Shown: piece by piece, positions 5,069 through 10,664 of the stretch
How the letters are laid out: each line of letters opens with the position of its first letter
How positions within the stretch are numbered: the first letter of the stretch is position 1
Notes under the pieces: model-generated
The model's database searches: none
Seen by the model: the letters and a program-made list of their open reading frames with translations, nothing else
Told to the model about the DNA's origin: nothing
Assembly: GCF_013449685.1 (NCBI RefSeq)
Contig: NZ_JACDSF010000041.1
Span: 458-40,456, forward strand
Reading direction: 5' to 3'
Length of the DNA: 39,999 bases
Origin: Pectobacterium brasiliense
GTDB taxonomy: Bacteria > Pseudomonadota > Gammaproteobacteria > Enterobacterales > Enterobacteriaceae
Translations under genes and position numbers: made by a program

Positions 5069-6403
5069 TTACTTCGTCGATTGTTCAAAGCGACGCAGCA
5101 GTGCGTTACCGCGTTCTACTGCGCTATCCAACGCCTGTTGTGGCGTCTTCTTATTGGTCCATACGCTTTCTAATTCTTCATCCACAACGGTACGAATTTG
5201 CGGCATGTTGCCCAAACGCAGACCTTTGGTGAACGGCAACGGTGGCTTGTTCAGCATCTGACGCGTGGCGATATCCGCACCTGGGTTTTTCTCGTAGAAG
5301 CCCTGCTTCTGCGTCAGTTCGTACGCCGCAGTAGTGATTGGCAGGTAACCGGTTTTCTGATGCCATTCAGCGGCATTTTCCGGCTCGGCCAGGAACTTCA
5401 TAAACTCAGCGACGCCTTTGTAGGTCGCGGCATCTTTACCGCCCATCACCCACAGGCTGGCACCACCGATAATGGCGTTCTGCGGTGCACCTTTCGCATC
5501 GGCGTCATACGGCATCATGCCAACACCGTAATTGAACTTGGCGTGTTCCCGAATGTTCGCCAGCGAACCGGAAGAGGCGGTCGTAATAGCGCAGTCGCCG
5601 TTATAGAACTTCTCGGTCGGCTCATCCTTACGCCCAAAATAGGTGAAGTCACCCTTCTTGTTCATGTCCTGCAACAGCTGGATGTGCTTAACCTGCGTTG
5701 GTTTGTTGAATTCCAACACGGCATCGGTGCCGTCAAAGCCGTTATTTTTGCTCGCAACGGGCAGACCGTGCCAGGCACTGAAGTTTTCAATCTGAATCCA
5801 GCCCTGCCAGCCGCTGGCGTAGCCGCACTTCATCCCAGTTGCACGCAGTTTGGCGGTGTATTCAGCCATCTGCTGCCAGGTTTTCGGCGGCTGCTCAGGA
5901 TCTAAACCGGCCTTCTTGAAGGCATCTTTGTTGTAGTACAGCACCGGCGTGGAGCTGTTAAACGGCTGCGACAGCAGGTGACCGCTCTTCGCATCGGTGT
6001 AATAACCGGAGACAGTCGGTACAAACACCGATTCATCGAAATTAATGCCTGCGTCTTTGAAGACTTCATAGACAGGCTTGATGGCTTTACTTGCCATCAT
6101 GGTCGCCGTACCGACTTCATAGACCTGCAAAATAGCGGGCGCATTCCCCGCACGATAGGCCGCAATCCCGGCGGCCAGATTCTGTTCGTAGTTGCCTTTA
6201 TAGACCGGAACAATTTTTACATCGCTGTGCGCTTGGTTAAAACGGTCAGCCAGAGAATTCACTTCTTTCCCTAATTCGCCTTCCATGGAGTGCCAGAAAG
6301 GAATTTCTGTCGCGGCTTGCGCACTGGCGCTCATCAGCGCTAATGCCACACACGCCGCGGCGGTGCGAATAGCATGTGTTTTACGAATTGTGTTGTTGAA
6401 CAT
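5069..6403 (-). CDS. ugpB: Periplasmic glycerol-3-phosphate binding protein UgpB
   Basis: UgpB captures sn-glycerol-3-phosphate and glycerophosphodiesters in the periplasm and delivers them to UgpAE. From the ATG at 6403 the protein has 444 residues (E. coli about 438), with a Sec signal peptide: basic 'RKTHAIR', hydrophobic '[17 protein letters not shown]', cleavage probably after AQA, then mature '[18 protein letters not shown]', typical of family 1 solute-binding proteins (PF01547). The longest frame begins with a TTG at 6418, but the ATG at 6403 has a clear AGGAGA six bases upstream. It is the first and probably most expressed gene of ugpBAECQ, and lies directly below a PhoB-type promoter (6475-6518). 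Confidence 0.97.
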
Positions 6404-6474
6404 GCCTGTCTCCTGCAATCAATTAAATGCGCCATCATCACGGCGTTTTTTATGCGAAGGTAAACATGACATGA

Positions 6475-6518
6475 GCGCATGACAGAAAAATAACTGGAAG
6501 ATGACGGGAAAGTGACAA
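6475..6518 (-). promoter_or_regulatory. Four tandem 11-bp Pho-box half units upstream of ugpB
   Basis: Read on the minus strand, four consecutive 11-mers follow each other: TTGTCACTTTC, CCGTCATCTTC, CAGTTATTTTT, CTGTCATGCGC. A PhoB box is two direct repeats of CTGTCAT plus four A/T-rich bases, so this is room for two boxes in tandem, with the third unit the weakest. A CATAAA -10-like element lies about 20 bases downstream, and ugpB starts about 70 bases downstream. This fits the known phosphate-starvation control of ugp in E. coli, where PhoB replaces the -35 contact. Confidence 0.8.
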
Positions 6519-6534
6519 GGAAGGAGGGAAAGCT

Positions 6535-7200
6535 CTAAATTTTAATTGGATAGAGTAGCATCAGGGGCTGCACTGGCGAGGGCTCAAAAGCGAATTTAAG
6601 GTAGAAATTGCGCACGTTCTCATCCAGCGCGTGAACGACTAATGCCCTCACACCCACTTGCAAAGCAATATTCTCAGTCCGAAATATCGCGTCTTTTAAT
6701 AAAGCCACACCCAAACCTTTACCAGAATACGCCAGATCAATGGCAAGCCGCCCAAGGACAATGACTGGTAGTGATTCGGGGGCATTACGTCTATATGCAC
6801 CAGGCGCTGTATTTCTCCAGGGCGAGATCTAACTCACTTTGTGTGGTTATTATGCTCAAAATAGATACGATTTCAGTTCAAAGAATGCACGTCAGATACA
6901 TAATTACCGATTGATAAAAGGTTATTAATATATGGGTATTATCAAATTTCTTGAATTGTATGCGTTTTAAGCAAAGTGGAATCCCGCCCTGGTATTTCTC
7001 TGAACGCTACCTGTTGATAAACAATAATATCCAATCACCTGATGTGTGCCTTCAGCGCAAATCACATATACACGAGAAATCCCTGCACTATGATTTTTTA
7101 GCGCTTTCTTTTTTAGCCATTCATTCAAGCTCGGTTCTTGGCTGCAAAATTCAGCAAGATTATGGCTGGAAGATAATGGCTCTGGCGCAGTTATTCCCAT
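6535..7200 (-). pseudogene. TacT-like GNAT toxin split by a MITE
   Basis: The N-terminal part (7200 down to 6992) reads 'MGITAPEPLSSSHNLAEF', 'LNEWLKKKALKN' and 'VIGYYCLSTGSV'. The C-terminal part (6817 down to 6535) reads 'LPVIVLGRLAIDLAYSGKGL', 'RALVVHALDENVRNFYLKF' and ends 'YPIKI'. Removing the 174-bp insert at 6818-6991 and one 9-bp target copy joins the two in one frame of 160 residues plus stop, the usual length of TacT-type acetyltransferase toxins. These acetylate aminoacyl-tRNA. The GNAT acetyl-CoA loop (SGKGLG) and the conserved Tyr of 'NFYLKF' lie in the detached C-terminal part. As it stands translation ends at 6967-6969 after 77 residues, with no acetyl-CoA site, so the toxin should be inactive. 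The start overlaps the antitoxin by 10 bases. Confidence 0.88.
6818..6991. mobile_element. 174-bp MITE with 9-bp target duplication
   Basis: The element is flanked by GTATTTCTC at 6809-6817 and again at 6992-7000, a perfect 9-bp direct repeat. Its ends are inverted repeats: left CAGGGCGAGATCTAACTCAC, right (complement) CAGGGCGGGATTCCACTTTG. These match at 10 of the first 11 bases and, after a short indel, again at ACTTTG. The interior is AT-rich and has no coding frame, so movement would need a transposase supplied in trans. Ends beginning CAGGG and an 8-10 bp target duplication would suit the ISAs1/H-repeat group, but that link is from memory. Excision in silico restores the host gene exactly, which supports both boundaries. 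Confidence 0.85.
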
Positions 7201-7475
7201 GGCGATTTGCGGCTCATTAGATCGTTAATGCGAGCCTGACGCTCTGCGGTGATAGGCGCATCCAACTCGGCCAAAAATTCGTCAAACTGTTCGTTATCCA
7301 AAATAAACAAACGTTGATCCAACAAAATGTCCTGCGCCTCGCGGCAGGCTGCTTCAAGCATAAAATCGGTACGCGATTTTGACACAAGGTTTGCAGCCAT
7401 ATCGATCAAATCCCGTTGGGAGGCTTTGGCCCGAATATTGATTGGCGCTTCTTTAGTTTCAGGTTTCATCATCAT
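7191..7475 (-). CDS. TacA-like DUF1778 antitoxin
   Basis: This is the antitoxin partner of the disrupted GNAT toxin. From the first of three adjacent ATGs (7475, 7472, 7469) it has 94 residues. The N-terminal half, 'INIRAKASQRDLIDMAANLV' and 'SRTDFMLEAACREAQ', is the ribbon-helix-helix region of DUF1778 (PF08681), which dimerises and binds its own operator. The C-terminal tail, 'FDEFLAELDAPITAERQARI', is the part that wraps the toxin in TacA-TacT complexes. The stop overlaps the toxin start by 10 bases. A longer frame reaches 7550, but its extra N-terminus is unlike the family and crosses the promoter region. The antitoxin is intact although its toxin is broken, so it may persist as a stand-alone repressor or protect against related toxins. 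Confidence 0.88.
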   Translation of the reverse strand: MMMKPETKEAPINIRAKASQRDLIDMAANLVSKSRTDFMLEAACREAQDILLDQRLFILDNEQFDEFLAELDAPITAERQARINDLMSRKSPWE

Positions 7476-7491
7476 GCCCGTGTAGTGAATC

Positions 7492-7519
7492 GCTATACAA
7501 CTATACATGATGTGTACAA
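7492..7519 (-). promoter_or_regulatory. Probable promoter of the DUF1778/GNAT operon
   Basis: On the minus strand TTGTAC (-35) and TATAGC (-10) are separated by 16 bases, about 17 bases before the first antitoxin ATG. The region is rich in short palindromic words (TGTACA, and GTGTAG...TACAC further upstream), as expected where a ribbon-helix-helix antitoxin binds its own promoter. Match to consensus is only moderate. Confidence 0.4.
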
Positions 7520-7578
7520 AAATGCTACACACCGGAACATCACCATACATTCAAATGCGCTTGCTGCTTTATTCAGGC

Positions 7579-7995
7579 CTATTTTCGAATGACATCAACG
7601 ATAACGGTTTTAGGATCGTTGATGATTCCTATATGTATCGTTTTATCTGAATCCGTAGACTTCCAATACTCACCCGTTGTGTCTGTGTAGCTCAGCGTAA
7701 AGCCAAGCGACGCTAGATAGCCGCGTATGTTTGTCGCGTCATTGGTGTTTTGAAACGTAATATTACTGACTTCCAATGCAGGGCCATCAACGGTTGCATA
7801 GCCAAAATCATAGATAGAAGAAATACGCGGGCAATTTTTAATGATCTCATCCGTCAGCATTTCATATCGTCGGGTGTCCTGTTCCGTGTAGCGAGAACTC
7901 CCCTCCGTCAGAATAACCATGGCAGGCCAATAATAGATAAGCGGCAAGGCAATGAGGAGCGATATGACGAGTGGTATAATTATCTTTTTTTTCAT
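7579..7995 (-). CDS. Small membrane-anchored protein of unknown function
   Basis: I do not recognise this 138-residue protein. It begins 'MKKKIIIPLVISLLIALPLI', a lysine-rich start and one hydrophobic helix (about residues 4-24) that is either an anchor or an uncleaved signal, followed by a roughly 110-residue soluble domain with one cysteine, probably periplasmic. The ATG at 7995 comes one base after the TAA stop of the upstream DUF4056-like gene, so the two are almost certainly translated together. The longest frame starts at 8043 inside that gene and is less likely. Its tight link to the DUF4056-like gene suggests a joint function. An effector/immunity or lipoprotein-processing role is conceivable, but nothing in the sequence shows it. 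Confidence 0.7.
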   Translation of the reverse strand: MKKKIIIPLVISLLIALPLIYYWPAMVILTEGSSRYTEQDTRRYEMLTDEIIKNCPRISSIYDFGYATVDGPALEVSNITFQNTNDATNIRGYLASLGFTLSYTDTTGEYWKSTDSDKTIHIGIINDPKTVIVDVIRK

Positions 7996-7996
7996 G

Positions 7997-8692
7997 TTAT
8001 TTAAAGAAATTTGTTGTGAGTTCAGTGCCATCGTAGGATGCAATACCTACGTTTCCTGACTTAAAATCATTATAGGGTTGTATTGTTTGCATAAAAGAGG
8101 GGAGATACCCCAATCGAGGTTGAGCATGCGGCATCTTCTCAGGGTCTGGAAATAAAATAGGGCGGAATCCTATGTTTTTAAAATTTCCTATAGGGCCATA
8201 AAAATCCCATCGTTTTAATGCTTCTTCTTTACTCACTGGCCGTAATAAATAAAAAGGATTAGGAGTAGAAACCACTCGGTAAAAACCTAATAAATCTGAA
8301 ACAAGATCTTCCCCACTAAATCCACTATCTGTAACTAAATTGAATGGAAAAGAAGCCTGCATAGATTCAAACCGTTTCGCTACGGTGAGCATCATAGCAA
8401 GAGCAATGCGATGTCTTTCTTGAAGAGATCTTCCTTTTTTTATCCGCCACTTAATAAACCGGTTGATAGTGACACTTCTTCTGAGTCCAATCATGCCTTG
8501 TTTATAGGTAACATCGTAGTATGGCATTCCGTCTTCAGTATTCTCCCCGACATACATTTGTTGAATAATATCCTTAATGTCGTCCCCTTTCGCATGGCCT
8601 AAATCAATCCAACCTAGCACCTCGGTATAAATCAAGCCATATGTCACACCCGAGGCTTGTCGGCCATCAATGATTTCACTACGCACGCTCAT
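7997..8692 (-). CDS. DUF4056-like protein
   Basis: The protein has 231 residues. Two stretches resemble DUF4056 proteins (PF13265) as I remember them: 'YGLIYTEVLGWIDLGHAKGD' near the N-terminus, with the typical Gly-Trp/Phe-Ile-Asp-x-Gly/Ala-His core, and 'SGFSGEDLVSDLLGFYRVV' in the middle. Usual family members are longer and carry an N-terminal lipoprotein or secretion signal. Here the protein begins just before the first conserved block, and an in-frame TAA two codons upstream excludes extension, so this is a short or N-terminally truncated version. AAGGA precedes the ATG at suitable distance. Function of the family is unknown to me; the conserved Asp and His hint at a hydrolase-like site, which is inference. 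It heads a two-gene unit. Confidence 0.65.
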   Translation of the reverse strand: MSVRSEIIDGRQASGVTYGLIYTEVLGWIDLGHAKGDDIKDIIQQMYVGENTEDGMPYYDVTYKQGMIGLRRSVTINRFIKWRIKKGRSLQERHRIALAMMLTVAKRFESMQASFPFNLVTDSGFSGEDLVSDLLGFYRVVSTPNPFYLLRPVSKEEALKRWDFYGPIGNFKNIGFRPILFPDPEKMPHAQPRLGYLPSFMQTIQPYNDFKSGNVGIASYDGTELTTNFFK

Positions 8693-8777
8693 TATTTACA
8701 TTCCTTTGTTTTTTCATGAGGTTATTTAATTAATCACATTGCGATAATACGTTTATTTACAGATGAAACTCAAGGCA

Positions 8778-8976
8778 TTAAAGAATCCGCTCAGGTAAAC
8801 GCCCGCCACCTGCACCTCCCCCCATTTTGCTCAAGGTTTCTTTGGCGGCGGCGGGCAGGCCATCGTCGGTGATGATGCTGTCGAAGACGCTGAGCGGCGT
8901 GGCGAGATGGGTGGCGATGCGGCCGTATTTTGAGGTGTCGCATAGCAGTACGCACTTACTGCTGGCTGAACATCAC
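8778..8976 (-). pseudogene. Truncated duplicate of the DeoR regulator 3' end
   Basis: Bases 8820-8966 match 9927-10073 of the intact DeoR-type regulator gene over 147 positions with about 8 mismatches by my count. On the minus strand the fragment encodes 'CDTSKYGRIATHLATPLSVF' and 'SIITDDGLPAAAKETLSKMG', then diverges to a Gly-rich tail ending at a TAA at 8778-8780. At 8959-8976 the copy jumps to sequence found at 10431-10448 of the intact gene. The two join at CTGCTGGC, present at both 10066-10073 and 10431-10438, so a deletion of 365 bp between 8-bp direct repeats explains it. The helix-turn-helix and most of the sensor domain are missing. Confidence 0.85.
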
Positions 8977-9054
8977 GGCGTTTTTTGGGCGAAAACAAGC
9001 ATGGCATACGCGTATGACAGAAAAAACAACTGGAAAATGACGGGGAAATGGCAA
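8971..9054 (-). repeat. Degenerate second copy of the ugpB promoter region
   Basis: This stretch aligns with 6438-6518 almost without gaps (one extra base), at roughly three-quarters identity by eye. Shared blocks include CATCACGGCGTTTTTT and TATGACAGAAAAA (CATGACAGAAAAA in the first copy). Pho-box-like units survive on the minus strand: CCGTCATTTTC at 9033-9043 and CTGTCATACGC at 9010-9020, with a one-base expansion between units. It joins the DeoR fragment at a shared CATCAC. Any remaining promoter activity would point left, toward the DeoR fragment and the DUF4056-like gene. Confidence 0.7.
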
Positions 9055-9115
9055 AGAGAGGGAGAGATAAAAGCACCGATTAAACATACTATTTCGTGCC
9101 ACTACGATTGCACTA

Positions 9116-9159
9116 TTGCAGAAAACCCGTAATTTAGACTATAGTTATTATTACTAGTC
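9116..9159 (+). promoter_or_regulatory. Promoter and probable operator of the RelE/XRE pair
   Basis: TTGCAG (9116-9121) and TATAGT (9140-9145) are 18 bases apart and lie just upstream of the toxin GTG at 9177. An inverted repeat GACTA (9137-9141) / TAGTC (9155-9159) covers and follows the -10 element, a suitable place for autorepression by the XRE antitoxin. Assignment rests on pattern only. Confidence 0.45.
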
Positions 9160-9176
9160 ATGTTTAAGGATTAACC

Positions 9177-9602
9177 GTGGCGGTATACACAACTAAGCTC
9201 TTCGATAAAAAACTAAAAAGCGAAATACTTTCTGATAGTTATCTTTGTAAGATTGCTCATGAGGTGATGAATGGCCGTTTTGAGGGTGACCTTGGCGGTG
9301 GCGTGCTTAAAAAACGAATTGCATTGAATGCCGGAAAGAGTGCAGGAGCCAGAACAATCATCTTTTTCAAGCTGGGCTCTAATCTATTTTTTGCCGATGG
9401 ATGGAAAAAAAATCAGGTCAGGAAAGGCGTTAAAGAAATTCAAGATGATGAGCTGGCTGTTTATAAAGACATTGCTGGTGACCTATTTCAACTCACCGTT
9501 CAACAACTAGCTCAATTAGTAAAAGTGAAAGAACTACGAGAGGTGGAATGCGATGGCTGCAAAGATGAAAGAGCTACAGGAAATGGCGAAAAGCCTGCAT
9601 GA
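9177..9602 (+). CDS. RelE-like (PF06296 type) toxin
   Basis: This is the toxin of a reverse-order (toxin first) type II module. Its 141 residues contain the family core: 'GDLGGGVLKKRIAL', 'GKSAGARTIIFFKL', 'LFFADGWKKNQ' and a C-terminal 'DLFQLTVQQLAQLVK'. PF06296 proteins belong to the RelE/HigB group, which cleave mRNA at the ribosome; the target of this one is unknown. The start is a GTG, with AAGGA at 9166-9170 six bases upstream. The last 50 bases overlap the antitoxin gene, so the C-terminal 'VECDGCKDERATGNGEKPA' is encoded in the overlap and makes this protein slightly longer than is usual. No frameshift or missing core motif is visible, so the pair may be active. Confidence 0.85.
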   Translation: MAVYTTKLFDKKLKSEILSDSYLCKIAHEVMNGRFEGDLGGGVLKKRIALNAGKSAGARTIIFFKLGSNLFFADGWKKNQVRKGVKEIQDDELAVYKDIAGDLFQLTVQQLAQLVKVKELREVECDGCKDERATGNGEKPA

Positions 9603-9882
9603 ACATGGAGGTATCACTGATACCACGATGGAACACATCAATAATCGGGTTGCAGCAAGGGAATTCCGTGAACGCATTGAGCAAGCTCACGCAATGAGCG
9701 GAGCAGACATTCAGAACATGCGTTCCCGTTATAAAATGTCGCAATCTTCTTTAGCTTATGCTCTCAATATGTCCGTTGAGAGCGTCTCAAAATGGGAACG
9801 AAATGAGAAGAAACCCTCAGGGGCTGCACTACGTCTTCTCAATATAATCAACGAGAAAGGTCTGGATATTTTTGCCAGTTAG
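9553..9882 (+). CDS. XRE-family antitoxin of the RelE-like toxin
   Basis: The protein has 109 residues: a helical N-terminus, then a C-terminal helix-turn-helix of the XRE/HigA/NadS type, 'MSQSSLAYALNMSVESVSKW' followed by 'ERNEKKPSGAALRLLNIINE'. Such antitoxins bind the toxin and repress the shared promoter. The ATG at 9553 has GAGAGGTGGA just upstream, inside the toxin gene, and the 50-base overlap supports coupled translation. An ATG at 9565 could also serve. No terminator follows; the convergent DeoR gene ends 24 bases downstream. Confidence 0.88.
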   Translation: MAAKMKELQEMAKSLHEHGGITDTTMEHINNRVAAREFRERIEQAHAMSGADIQNMRSRYKMSQSSLAYALNMSVESVSKWERNEKKPSGAALRLLNIINEKGLDIFAS

Positions 9883-9905
9883 ACAAACAGACATAACCCC
9901 CTCCT

Positions 9906-10664
9906 TCACGCCACAAGCACCTCAACCCCCATTTTGCTCAAGGCGTCTTTAGCAGCGGCGGGCAGGCCGTCGTCGGTGATGATGCTGTCGAAGACGCTGA
10001 GCGGCGTGGCGAGATGGGTGGCGATGCGGCCGTATTTTGAGGTGTCGCATAGCAGGATGCATTTACTGCTGGCGTCTACCGCCGCGCGTTTCACGACCAC
10101 TTTGTCTTCATTCGGCGTGGACAGCCCGCGCAGGCTCCAGGAAGACGCGGAAATAAACGCAATATCGATAAACAGGTTGCGCAGCGCCTGTGCCACCGCT
10201 TCGCCAATGCAGGAGCGGTTTTCCCGACACAGCGTGCCGCCCGTGTGGATCATGCGGCACTGGCTGGACTCAATCAGAAAGGCAGCAATCACAAAGTCGT
10301 TGGTGACAATCAGCAGATCGTCACGATCGGCCAGTTCGCGCGCCAGCGATAGCGTGGTAGTGCCCGCATCCAGATAAATGCAGCTATTGAACGGGATATG
10401 CTGCGCCGCCAGTTTACCAATTGCCTCTTTCTGCTGGCTGAACATCACTGATTTATCCTGATGCGACGGCTCAATCGCCAGCCGTTCAGGCGAGCGCACA
10501 CCGCCGGAGACACTCAGCAGCAGGCCGTCCTGCTCCAGCTTTTGCACATCGCGCCGTACCGTCATGTGCGACACGCCCAGTCGCTCGGTCAGTTCGTTAA
10601 TGCTTACCGCACCGCGCTCGGCGATCAGCGCCAGAATCTGTTGATGACGTTCTACTGGAATCAC
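9906..10664 (-). CDS. ygbI: DeoR-family regulator of the threonate operon (YgbI-like)
   Basis: From a GTG at 10664 the protein has 252 residues and begins '(M)IPVERHQQILALIAE', the normal start of DeoR repressors. The N-terminal winged helix-turn-helix (about residues 5-58) includes 'VSINELTERLGVSHMTVRRD'. The C-terminal DeoR sensor domain shows 'YLDAGTTTLSLARELADRDD', 'HTGGTLCRENRSCIGEAVAQ' and 'LLCDTSKYGR', the sugar-phosphate-binding fold. The longest frame reaches 10733, but its first 23 residues are unlike the family and extend into the promoter region. The gene is divergent from ltnD-otnKCI-ygbN, as ygbI is from ygbJKLMN in E. coli, so it probably senses a pathway intermediate and represses the operon. 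The 3' end exists again as a truncated copy at 8778-8976. Confidence 0.88.
   Translation of the reverse strand: MIPVERHQQILALIAERGAVSINELTERLGVSHMTVRRDVQKLEQDGLLLSVSGGVRSPERLAIEPSHQDKSVMFSQQKEAIGKLAAQHIPFNSCIYLDAGTTTLSLARELADRDDLLIVTNDFVIAAFLIESSQCRMIHTGGTLCRENRSCIGEAVAQALRNLFIDIAFISASSWSLRGLSTPNEDKVVVKRAAVDASSKCILLCDTSKYGRIATHLATPLSVFDSIITDDGLPAAAKDALSKMGVEVLVA

Follow-up and report, generated by a model that had tools for sequence, protein, structure and literature searches.

The gap between ugpB and ygbI in Pectobacterium brasiliense carries two accessory cassettes stacked in tandem between duplicated pieces of its own flanks, and we put at about 0.8 the probability that this arrangement reflects alternative cassettes swapped through the two core flanks together with a single fusion that made a second slot. 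The window considered here is a stretch of 39,999 nucleotides (NZ_JACDSF010000041.1, positions 458 to 40,456) from a draft assembly of 169 contigs, hereafter G000. From position 6436 to 10664 it reads, in order, the original ugpB promoter region (P1), a cassette X composed of a broken tacT, tacA, Xu2 and Xu1, a 3' fragment of ygbI, a second copy of the promoter region (P2), a cassette Y and an intact ygbI. The left core flank, ugpB (5069–6418, minus strand), scores 915.2 bits with the UgpB model NF008211 (cut-off 411), and the right core flank, the DeoR-family repressor gene ygbI (9906–10664, minus strand), scores 473.6 bits with the NCBIfam YgbI model NF040890 (cut-off 400), in agreement with the names that an initial annotation of this DNA had given them. 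These genes are found, respectively, in 25 and 24 members of a genus set of 25 genomes, one per species and G000 included.

Both flank duplications are real and far above chance, and the tandem layout that the initial annotation had drawn from them holds. The ygbI fragment (8804–8966, minus strand) repeats part of the right flank inside the interval and aligns with the 3' end of the intact gene (from 9909) over 165 columns, at an identity of 92.7%. P2 (8971–9066), today the left boundary of Y, aligns with P1 (6436–6532, minus strand) over 98 columns, at 79.6%. The corresponding scores, 242 bits for ygbI and 81.5 bits for the promoter, compare with maxima of 25.6 and 24.7 bits in 200 dinucleotide shuffles each. 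The fragment had first been drawn from 8778; it really starts at about 8804, and the stretch that precedes it is the tail of X, also present in a genome that has X only (G024). P1 itself occurs in all 25 genomes with a mean pairwise identity of 95.7% over about 76 nt; in two of them (G013, L038; G007, L033), more than 100 bp are inserted just upstream of ugpB and the start of P1 is repeated on both sides.

The joint between the two cassettes is a readable scar (8955–8976) that combines the repeat CTGCTGGC, a short internal piece of ygbI (corresponding to 10427–10448) and a CATCAC microhomology leading into the ugpB promoter. Reading along the fragment, the sequence follows the 3' end of ygbI up to about nt 160–168, jumps to the internal ygbI piece at 10427–10448 and then enters the ugpB promoter at CATCAC; the presence of this internal piece within the joint reveals an internal deletion. 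Indeed, CTGCTGGC or a longer repeat lies at both points of the first jump, 365 bp apart, in 17 of the 24 intact ygbI genes (exact length of 8 nt in four, 9 nt in seven and 12 nt in six), one or both copies being altered in the other seven (G006, G007, G010, G013, G015, G018 and G024). At the second jump, the microhomology amounts to 6 bp (CATCAC) with the ygbI of G000 and to 8 bp (CATCACGG) with that of lineages such as G004, G012 and G019. With repeats and microhomology at the jump points, two small events suffice: a junction of the right flank with the left flank, which either a tandem duplication or the fusion of two alleles could produce, and one repeat-mediated deletion of 365 bp in the first ygbI copy. 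This supports the early suggestion that two alleles were placed in tandem and then shortened.

The tandem is not private to G000, since 6 of the 25 genomes carry the ygbI fragment with an identical joint, the 22-mer CTGCTGGCTGAACATCACGGCG being found exactly once in each of them (G000, G003, G008, G009, G019 and G021). A tree of rpoB and gyrB pairs G000 with G008 as sisters and places the remaining doubles, four in number, elsewhere. The double needs five changes on this tree, and 816 of 2000 label shuffles need five or fewer; this is no fewer than expected by chance, and the double thus does not follow the species tree. Because an identical scar is shared by six genomes that do not cluster on the species tree, the double arose once and was then either spread or repeatedly lost.

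Across the genus, ugpB and ygbI are contiguous in 22 of the 25 genomes, where they lie 863–5302 bp apart with a cargo that varies by genome (ParDE, TacTA, SymE, a retron, Fic, Hcp, Feo, X or Y), the closely related G004 and G005 carrying X and Feo, respectively. Pfam was run on 27 proteins (9 of the window and 18 from intervals or flanks) and PADLOC on 10 (7 from relatives and 3 from the window), the remaining open reading frames (ORFs) being read by eye. The families recovered are ParD/ParE, Fic, an ABC transporter, SymE, beta/cll and M78-peptidase proteins, Hcp with DUF4225, FeoB, and a retron-type reverse transcriptase with an NDT-type partner (RT_II-A, NDT_II-A). The gap is a hotspot for toxin, antidote, effector/immunity and defence cassettes. 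Its status as an insertion hotspot with alternative cassettes had been anticipated from the window, and toxin-antitoxin cassettes are part of the cargo as predicted then; the cargo is wider and also includes effector/immunity, retron and Fic modules. None of the 22 contiguous intervals is empty. No integrase or transposase family was found among the 27 Pfam-scanned proteins, the other ORFs being judged by eye only and attachment sites not having been searched for. Outside the genus, ugpB and ygbI lie about 0.4 kb apart in Dickeya oryzae and Prodigiosinella, with no match to a cassette segment, and the same place in Samsonia erythrinae holds ORFs that, judged by resemblance, are like those of G001 (parDE, Fic, ABC), along with an Xu2 remnant. 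A Brenneria record has ygbI without ugpB within 7 kb.

Single-cassette strains exist at the same place. X (Xu1 and Xu2) occurs without Y in G004, G006 and G024, with the caveat that G004 retains a partial ParD-like remnant, a stretch of 47–50% identity over about half the length that is also seen in G009, G017 and G019. Y stands without another cassette in G013 alone and beside a different left cassette (parDE-tacA) in G007 and G012. The right edge of X runs into the true ygbI in X-only genomes and into the fragment in the doubles, and the left edge of Y follows P1 in G013 and P2 in the doubles; with the same inner edges in singles and double, each cassette of the double keeps its native neighbours. 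The initial annotation had named two findings that would speak against its model, a double arrangement without single forms and flank similarity at background level; the relatives include single forms, and the flank similarity exceeds the shuffle background.

Exchange tracts that cross species with identities above those of core genes are present in a few pairs. G009 and G019 have in common a tract of 1096 nt at 99.7% identity that begins at nt 32 of the fragment and ends at nt 27 of ygbI, compared with 95.4% for core genes and 90.6% for ygbI. Similarly, Y is 99.6% identical between G007 and G008 (core 95.9%), and ygbI is 99.6% identical between G003 and G009 (core 95.6%). The tail of X in G000 (8690–8789) is 99% identical to that of the X-only G024 and 78–82% identical to those of the six other X carriers compared. 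A scan of 27 loci for tracts of at least 250 nt at 98.9% identity or more listed only seven, of which two belong to the conserved ugpB/P1 end, and did not pick up the G007/G008 tract.

The two duplicated flanks have not diverged to the same extent. As first noticed in the window, the promoter copies are more diverged than the ygbI copies, and this is true of G000 and of the five other doubles. Seven substitutions are fixed in all six P2 copies and found in none of the 25 P1 copies, identity being 81.0% between the two groups and 91.9% and 95.7% within them. For the ygbI fragments and genes, identities within and between groups are 90.0, 90.3 and 89.8%, with one fixed difference. Different sources for the flank pieces, which had been envisaged on account of this unequal divergence, are not needed: the fragments are no further from the ygbI genes than these genes are from each other, and it is P2 that stands apart from P1. 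On the simplest reading, the fragment may still exchange with ygbI alleles and the promoter copies, being shorter and more diverged, would not; this would account for the uneven divergence of the two flank copies.

In the history that we favour, one cassette would take the place of another, most probably through homologous recombination within the conserved flanks. In the double, a microhomology of 6–8 bp would have linked the ygbI end of an X allele to the ugpB promoter end of a Y allele, or of a second copy of the X allele itself, and a 365-bp deletion between repeats of 8–12 bp would have left about 165 nt of the first ygbI copy. Two slots would result, slot 1 from ugpB/P1 to the ygbI fragment and slot 2 from fragment/P2 to the intact ygbI, and the benefit may lie in holding more than one module and in keeping old antidotes. 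Several points weigh against this history. Several deep nodes of the species tree are poorly supported (34–64), one of the scar-bearing genomes (G021) has lost nearly all of its X pair, and the RelE gene of the only Y-only genome (G013) is interrupted by a stop codon. With one genome per species, swapping within species could not show, and recent exchange is documented for few pairs only, so that an old double with repeated loss is possible for the remainder. Furthermore, a duplication followed by replacement is not distinguishable from a direct fusion of two alleles. The tree of ygbI 3' ends that had been suggested at the outset was built from 24 genes and 6 fragments; over its 165 nt it gives mostly low support and no resolution, and the case for exchange through the fragment therefore draws on identity averages.

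The main alternative, rather unlikely and partly compatible with the history above, is that X-scar-Y is an ancient double transmitted mostly by vertical descent, the single forms being later deletions in which P2-Y was lost by recombination between the fragment and ygbI, and X was lost between P1 and P2. Such a recombination between fragment and ygbI would yield exactly the X-only form, and deletion remnants do exist: in G018, tacA runs into the final 104 nt of the Y antitoxin gene, all that is left of Y there, and in G021 the scar stands beside a nearly deleted X. Yet the promoter of the Y-only G013 is P1-like (96%) and not P2-like (81%), its Ypre is only 87.6% identical to that of the window, and the scar and Y of G009 and G019 are far above core identity, which means that the spread was at least partly horizontal. 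Somewhat less probable still, the P2-Y unit could come and go or be exchanged by itself, among other ways as a circle that recombination produces and that enters a bare ygbI, and the array would then grow by flank copying with no integrase; because of the recycled ygbI fragment, slot 2 would have its own homology arms and may be independently mobile. The G009/G019 tract was considered as proof of such a circular intermediate and dropped: its crossover points agree to a few nucleotides, but the alleles there are non-discriminating, and the position where the tract stops on the right may reflect a later exchange of ygbI between G003 and G009.

It is very improbable that a mobile element brought Y along with the flank copies and left the fragment as a transfer remnant. 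Passages of PMC10121019 describe Escherichia coli defence hotspots as mostly filled by mobile elements, and weak Y-like plasmid DNA can be found (67–70% identity over 22–25% of the query among the matches listed, with 9 of 10 records predicted conjugative). However, plasmid and phage searches with X and Y returned short or distant matches, with no record covering 80% of the query, and among the 25 genomes Y at 89% identity or more is confined to the ugpB–ygbI interval. In addition, the Pfam-scanned proteins lack integrase and transposase families, within the limits given above, and P2 and the fragment stand in native order beside their cassettes. As for an assembly artefact or chance repeats, the draft state of G000 would be the argument in their favour; with an identical scar in six assemblies, one of which (G003) is a single contig, and a similarity far above shuffles, their probability is negligible.

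The interval tends to keep antidotes longer than toxins. Counting as intact a gene recovered over 90% of its length in one match with no stop, the 25 genomes hold 9 tacA and 3 tacT, 15 Xu2 and 7 Xu1, 9 Y antitoxin and 8 RelE, and 8 parD and 8 parE genes, that is 41 intact antidotes and 26 intact toxins for the four protein pairs, these figures being counts of genomes and not of independent events. An intact toxin is never found without its intact antidote, and an antidote stands without an intact toxin in 15 cases. The antidote of SymE is not a protein, and SymE was left out of this count. Xu2 is intact without an intact Xu1 in 8 of its 15 carriers, and these orphans appear constrained, as the mean ratio of nonsynonymous to synonymous substitution rates (dN/dS) is 0.19 without and 0.15 with an intact Xu1. 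For tacA, the corresponding means, 0.17 in genomes without tacT and 0.03 in the three with it, hint at some relaxation of the orphans; all these means include the time before toxin loss.

In kind, both arrays that expand through recombination while retaining former immunity genes and defence hotspots between core genes are already known. For the Vibrio cholerae type VI secretion system (T6SS) arrays, Kirchberger et al. 2017 (PMC5361080) likewise describe module replacement by homologous recombination in conserved sequence with retention of old immunity genes, and propose for additions a homology-facilitated illegitimate recombination that resembles the ugpB–ygbI joint. These arrays differ in that they lie inside a T6SS cluster, their anchor is upstream of the effector-immunity module and gene duplication is argued against in the same passages, whereas the interval described here is anchored by two metabolic genes, carries toxin-antitoxin, retron and Fic cargo, and has a duplicated flank with a readable scar between full cassettes. 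The E. coli defence-island hotspots, according to sections of PMC10121019, also hold variable defence cargo between fixed core genes, but they mostly consist of prophages, integrative elements and transposons and are mostly unoccupied in a given genome, unlike the 22 contiguous ugpB–ygbI intervals, none of which is empty, and with no mobile-element gene seen among the scanned proteins. Pseudomonas aeruginosa core defence hotspots likewise place defence genes between core genes, a likeness by description only from part of PMC10250203.

Among the titles and beginnings of abstracts listed in literature searches on ygbI with ugpB, on Pectobacterium toxin-antitoxin systems, T6SS, hotspots and defence islands, on orphan antitoxins, anti-addiction and orphan immunity genes, and on duplication and microhomology, none deals with this interval. 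As far as these searches show, the locus, its mixed cargo and a readable stacking scar common to six species are new. The interval offers a nucleotide-level view of one locus moving from one alternative toxin/antidote allele to two, apparently without an integrase. A joint at a very short microhomology would put the flank copies in tandem, a deletion would shrink one of them, and the remnant would become the inner boundary. Because the scar is common to six species, this step can be traced across the genus. The data also suggest that the retention of orphan immunity genes, as in V. cholerae T6SS arrays, holds as well for a plant-associated genus whose cassettes are a mixture of toxin-antitoxin and effector-immunity types.

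Within cassette X, the TacA/TacT pair recognized in the initial annotation is present with its antitoxin intact, though its toxin gene is not. tacA (7191–7475, minus strand, 94-residue reading) matches PF08681 TacA1 with 67.5 bits when scanned as the longer ORF 7191–7550. tacT (6535–7200, minus strand), whose intact 160-residue homologue in G008 has Pfam matches to the GNAT family, is interrupted at 6818–6991: its alignment with this homologue shows a gap of 183 nt, that is a 174-bp element and a 9-bp target duplication, GTATTTCTC. Both genes of the pair are intact in G008, G015 and G016. The inserted element (6818–6991) has imperfect inverted ends of 11 bp (CAGGGCGRGAT) next to the duplicated GTATTTCTC, and it looks like a recently active miniature inverted-repeat transposable element, as the G000 genome holds eight full-length copies at 99–100% identity, this one included. 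In eight loci (L027, L028, L033, L037, L039, L043, L045 and L046), parDE occupies the place of tacT beside a copy of tacA, which is intact in five of them. Over the same eight genomes the synonymous divergence (dS) is 0.016 for parE and 0.100 for parD.

The other two genes of X encode Xu1 (7997–8692, minus strand), a probable T6SS-linked CapCone (lipocone) effector, and Xu2 (7579–7995, minus strand), its probable immunity protein. According to passages of PMC12419801, the CapCone signature comprises a Gly/His pair and an SxxSxxD motif. Both are found in Xu1, with a Gly six residues before the active-site His of H2 (G27, H33) and the S/GxxSxx pattern upstream of the H4 Asp (S123, S126, D129); these five residues are invariant in 25 aligned homologues, and F125, in the place where an aromatic residue often precedes the Ser of this motif, is nearly so. 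The Asn that usually follows the H4 Asp four residues later is missing, position 133 being a nearly invariant Asp in the family, as in the window, with Asn only in L175 and L184. This does not exclude membership, as the feature is described in that source as usual in the clade and is thus not defining. Some CapCone-1 and CapCone-2 members are toxins in the same passages, with a T6SS link for CapCone-1; for Xu1, no match to a solved fold was found. A DUF4056 ORF in a two-gene unit inside the T6SS locus of Salmonella Kentucky SPI-6, proposed as a candidate effector in part of PMC11669294, resembles Xu1 by description alone.

Of 392 family-level genomes, 60 contain relatives of Xu1, frequently several at once. 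Among 28 loci taken with 1.5-kb flanks, inspection by eye shows an Xu2-like gene beside the Xu1-like gene in 27, with one case of displacement. Three of the 28 (L160, L165 and L181), but not the window, have an Hcp gene (PF05638) immediately upstream, the other neighbours being read by eye. We consider it fairly probable, by analogy, that Xu1 would serve as an antibacterial effector against a lipid-linked intermediate of the envelope, with Xu2 as its immunity protein, a lipid-linked target being proposed because of the likeness to TelC in PMC12419801. Against an effector function, the match of Xu1 to PF13265 (DUF4056) is weak (E 0.0075, 16.1 bits, below the cut-off of 23.6), and three of four rescanned relatives have no Pfam match at all. 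A fold search with Xu1 gave no match at E 0.001, and sequence searches of the PDB with Xu1 and Xu2 gave nothing trustworthy.

The model of Xu2 (predicted local distance difference test score, pLDDT, 87.4) shows an N-terminal hydrophobic helix (residues 4–34) followed by mixed strands in a small alpha/beta domain. Xu2 has no Pfam or NCBIfam match at E 0.01, and its best fold-search match has an E-value of 0.031. Passages of PMC12419801 place CapCone-1 genes beside a PsbP/MOG1-type domain; MOG1 and DcrB appear only among the weak rows of the Xu2 fold search, are not significant and were not used. Mean column identity is 45% for Xu2 and 71% for Xu1, over alignments that do not contain the same rows. 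In one relative (G008, L034), Xu1 is split, apparently by a frameshift, and Xu2 is intact. A segment of 57 nt (8277–8333) is 87.7% identical to an unannotated record of 2034 bp, Escherichia phage ECO95 1-6-1.

Cassette Y comprises a toxin gene of the RelE family (9177–9602, plus strand; PF06296, 107.4 bits) and an antitoxin gene with a helix-turn-helix domain of the XRE type (9553–9882, plus strand), which scores 26.7 bits with PF01381 HTH_3 (cut-off 23) and stays below the cut-offs of TIGR03830 and NF041265. The two ORFs overlap by 50 nt, which fits a type II toxin-antitoxin arrangement. RelE genes at least 89% identical to that of Y occur in 9 of the 25 genomes, always inside the ugpB–ygbI interval, and remoter ones (at most 45%) occur elsewhere.

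Three genomes lack the contiguous arrangement. In G023 (L052), no ygbI match was obtained at the cut-off used, and ugpB is followed by other genes, two of which are chemotaxis-receptor-like by eye. In G011 (L048, L049), about 56 kb separate ugpB from ygbI, and in G022 (L050, L051) the two genes are on different contigs; both genomes have an aminotransferase-like ORF beside ugpB and, close to ygbI, ORFs for liv-type ABC transporters. This arrangement is a large rearrangement with its breakpoint within the hotspot.

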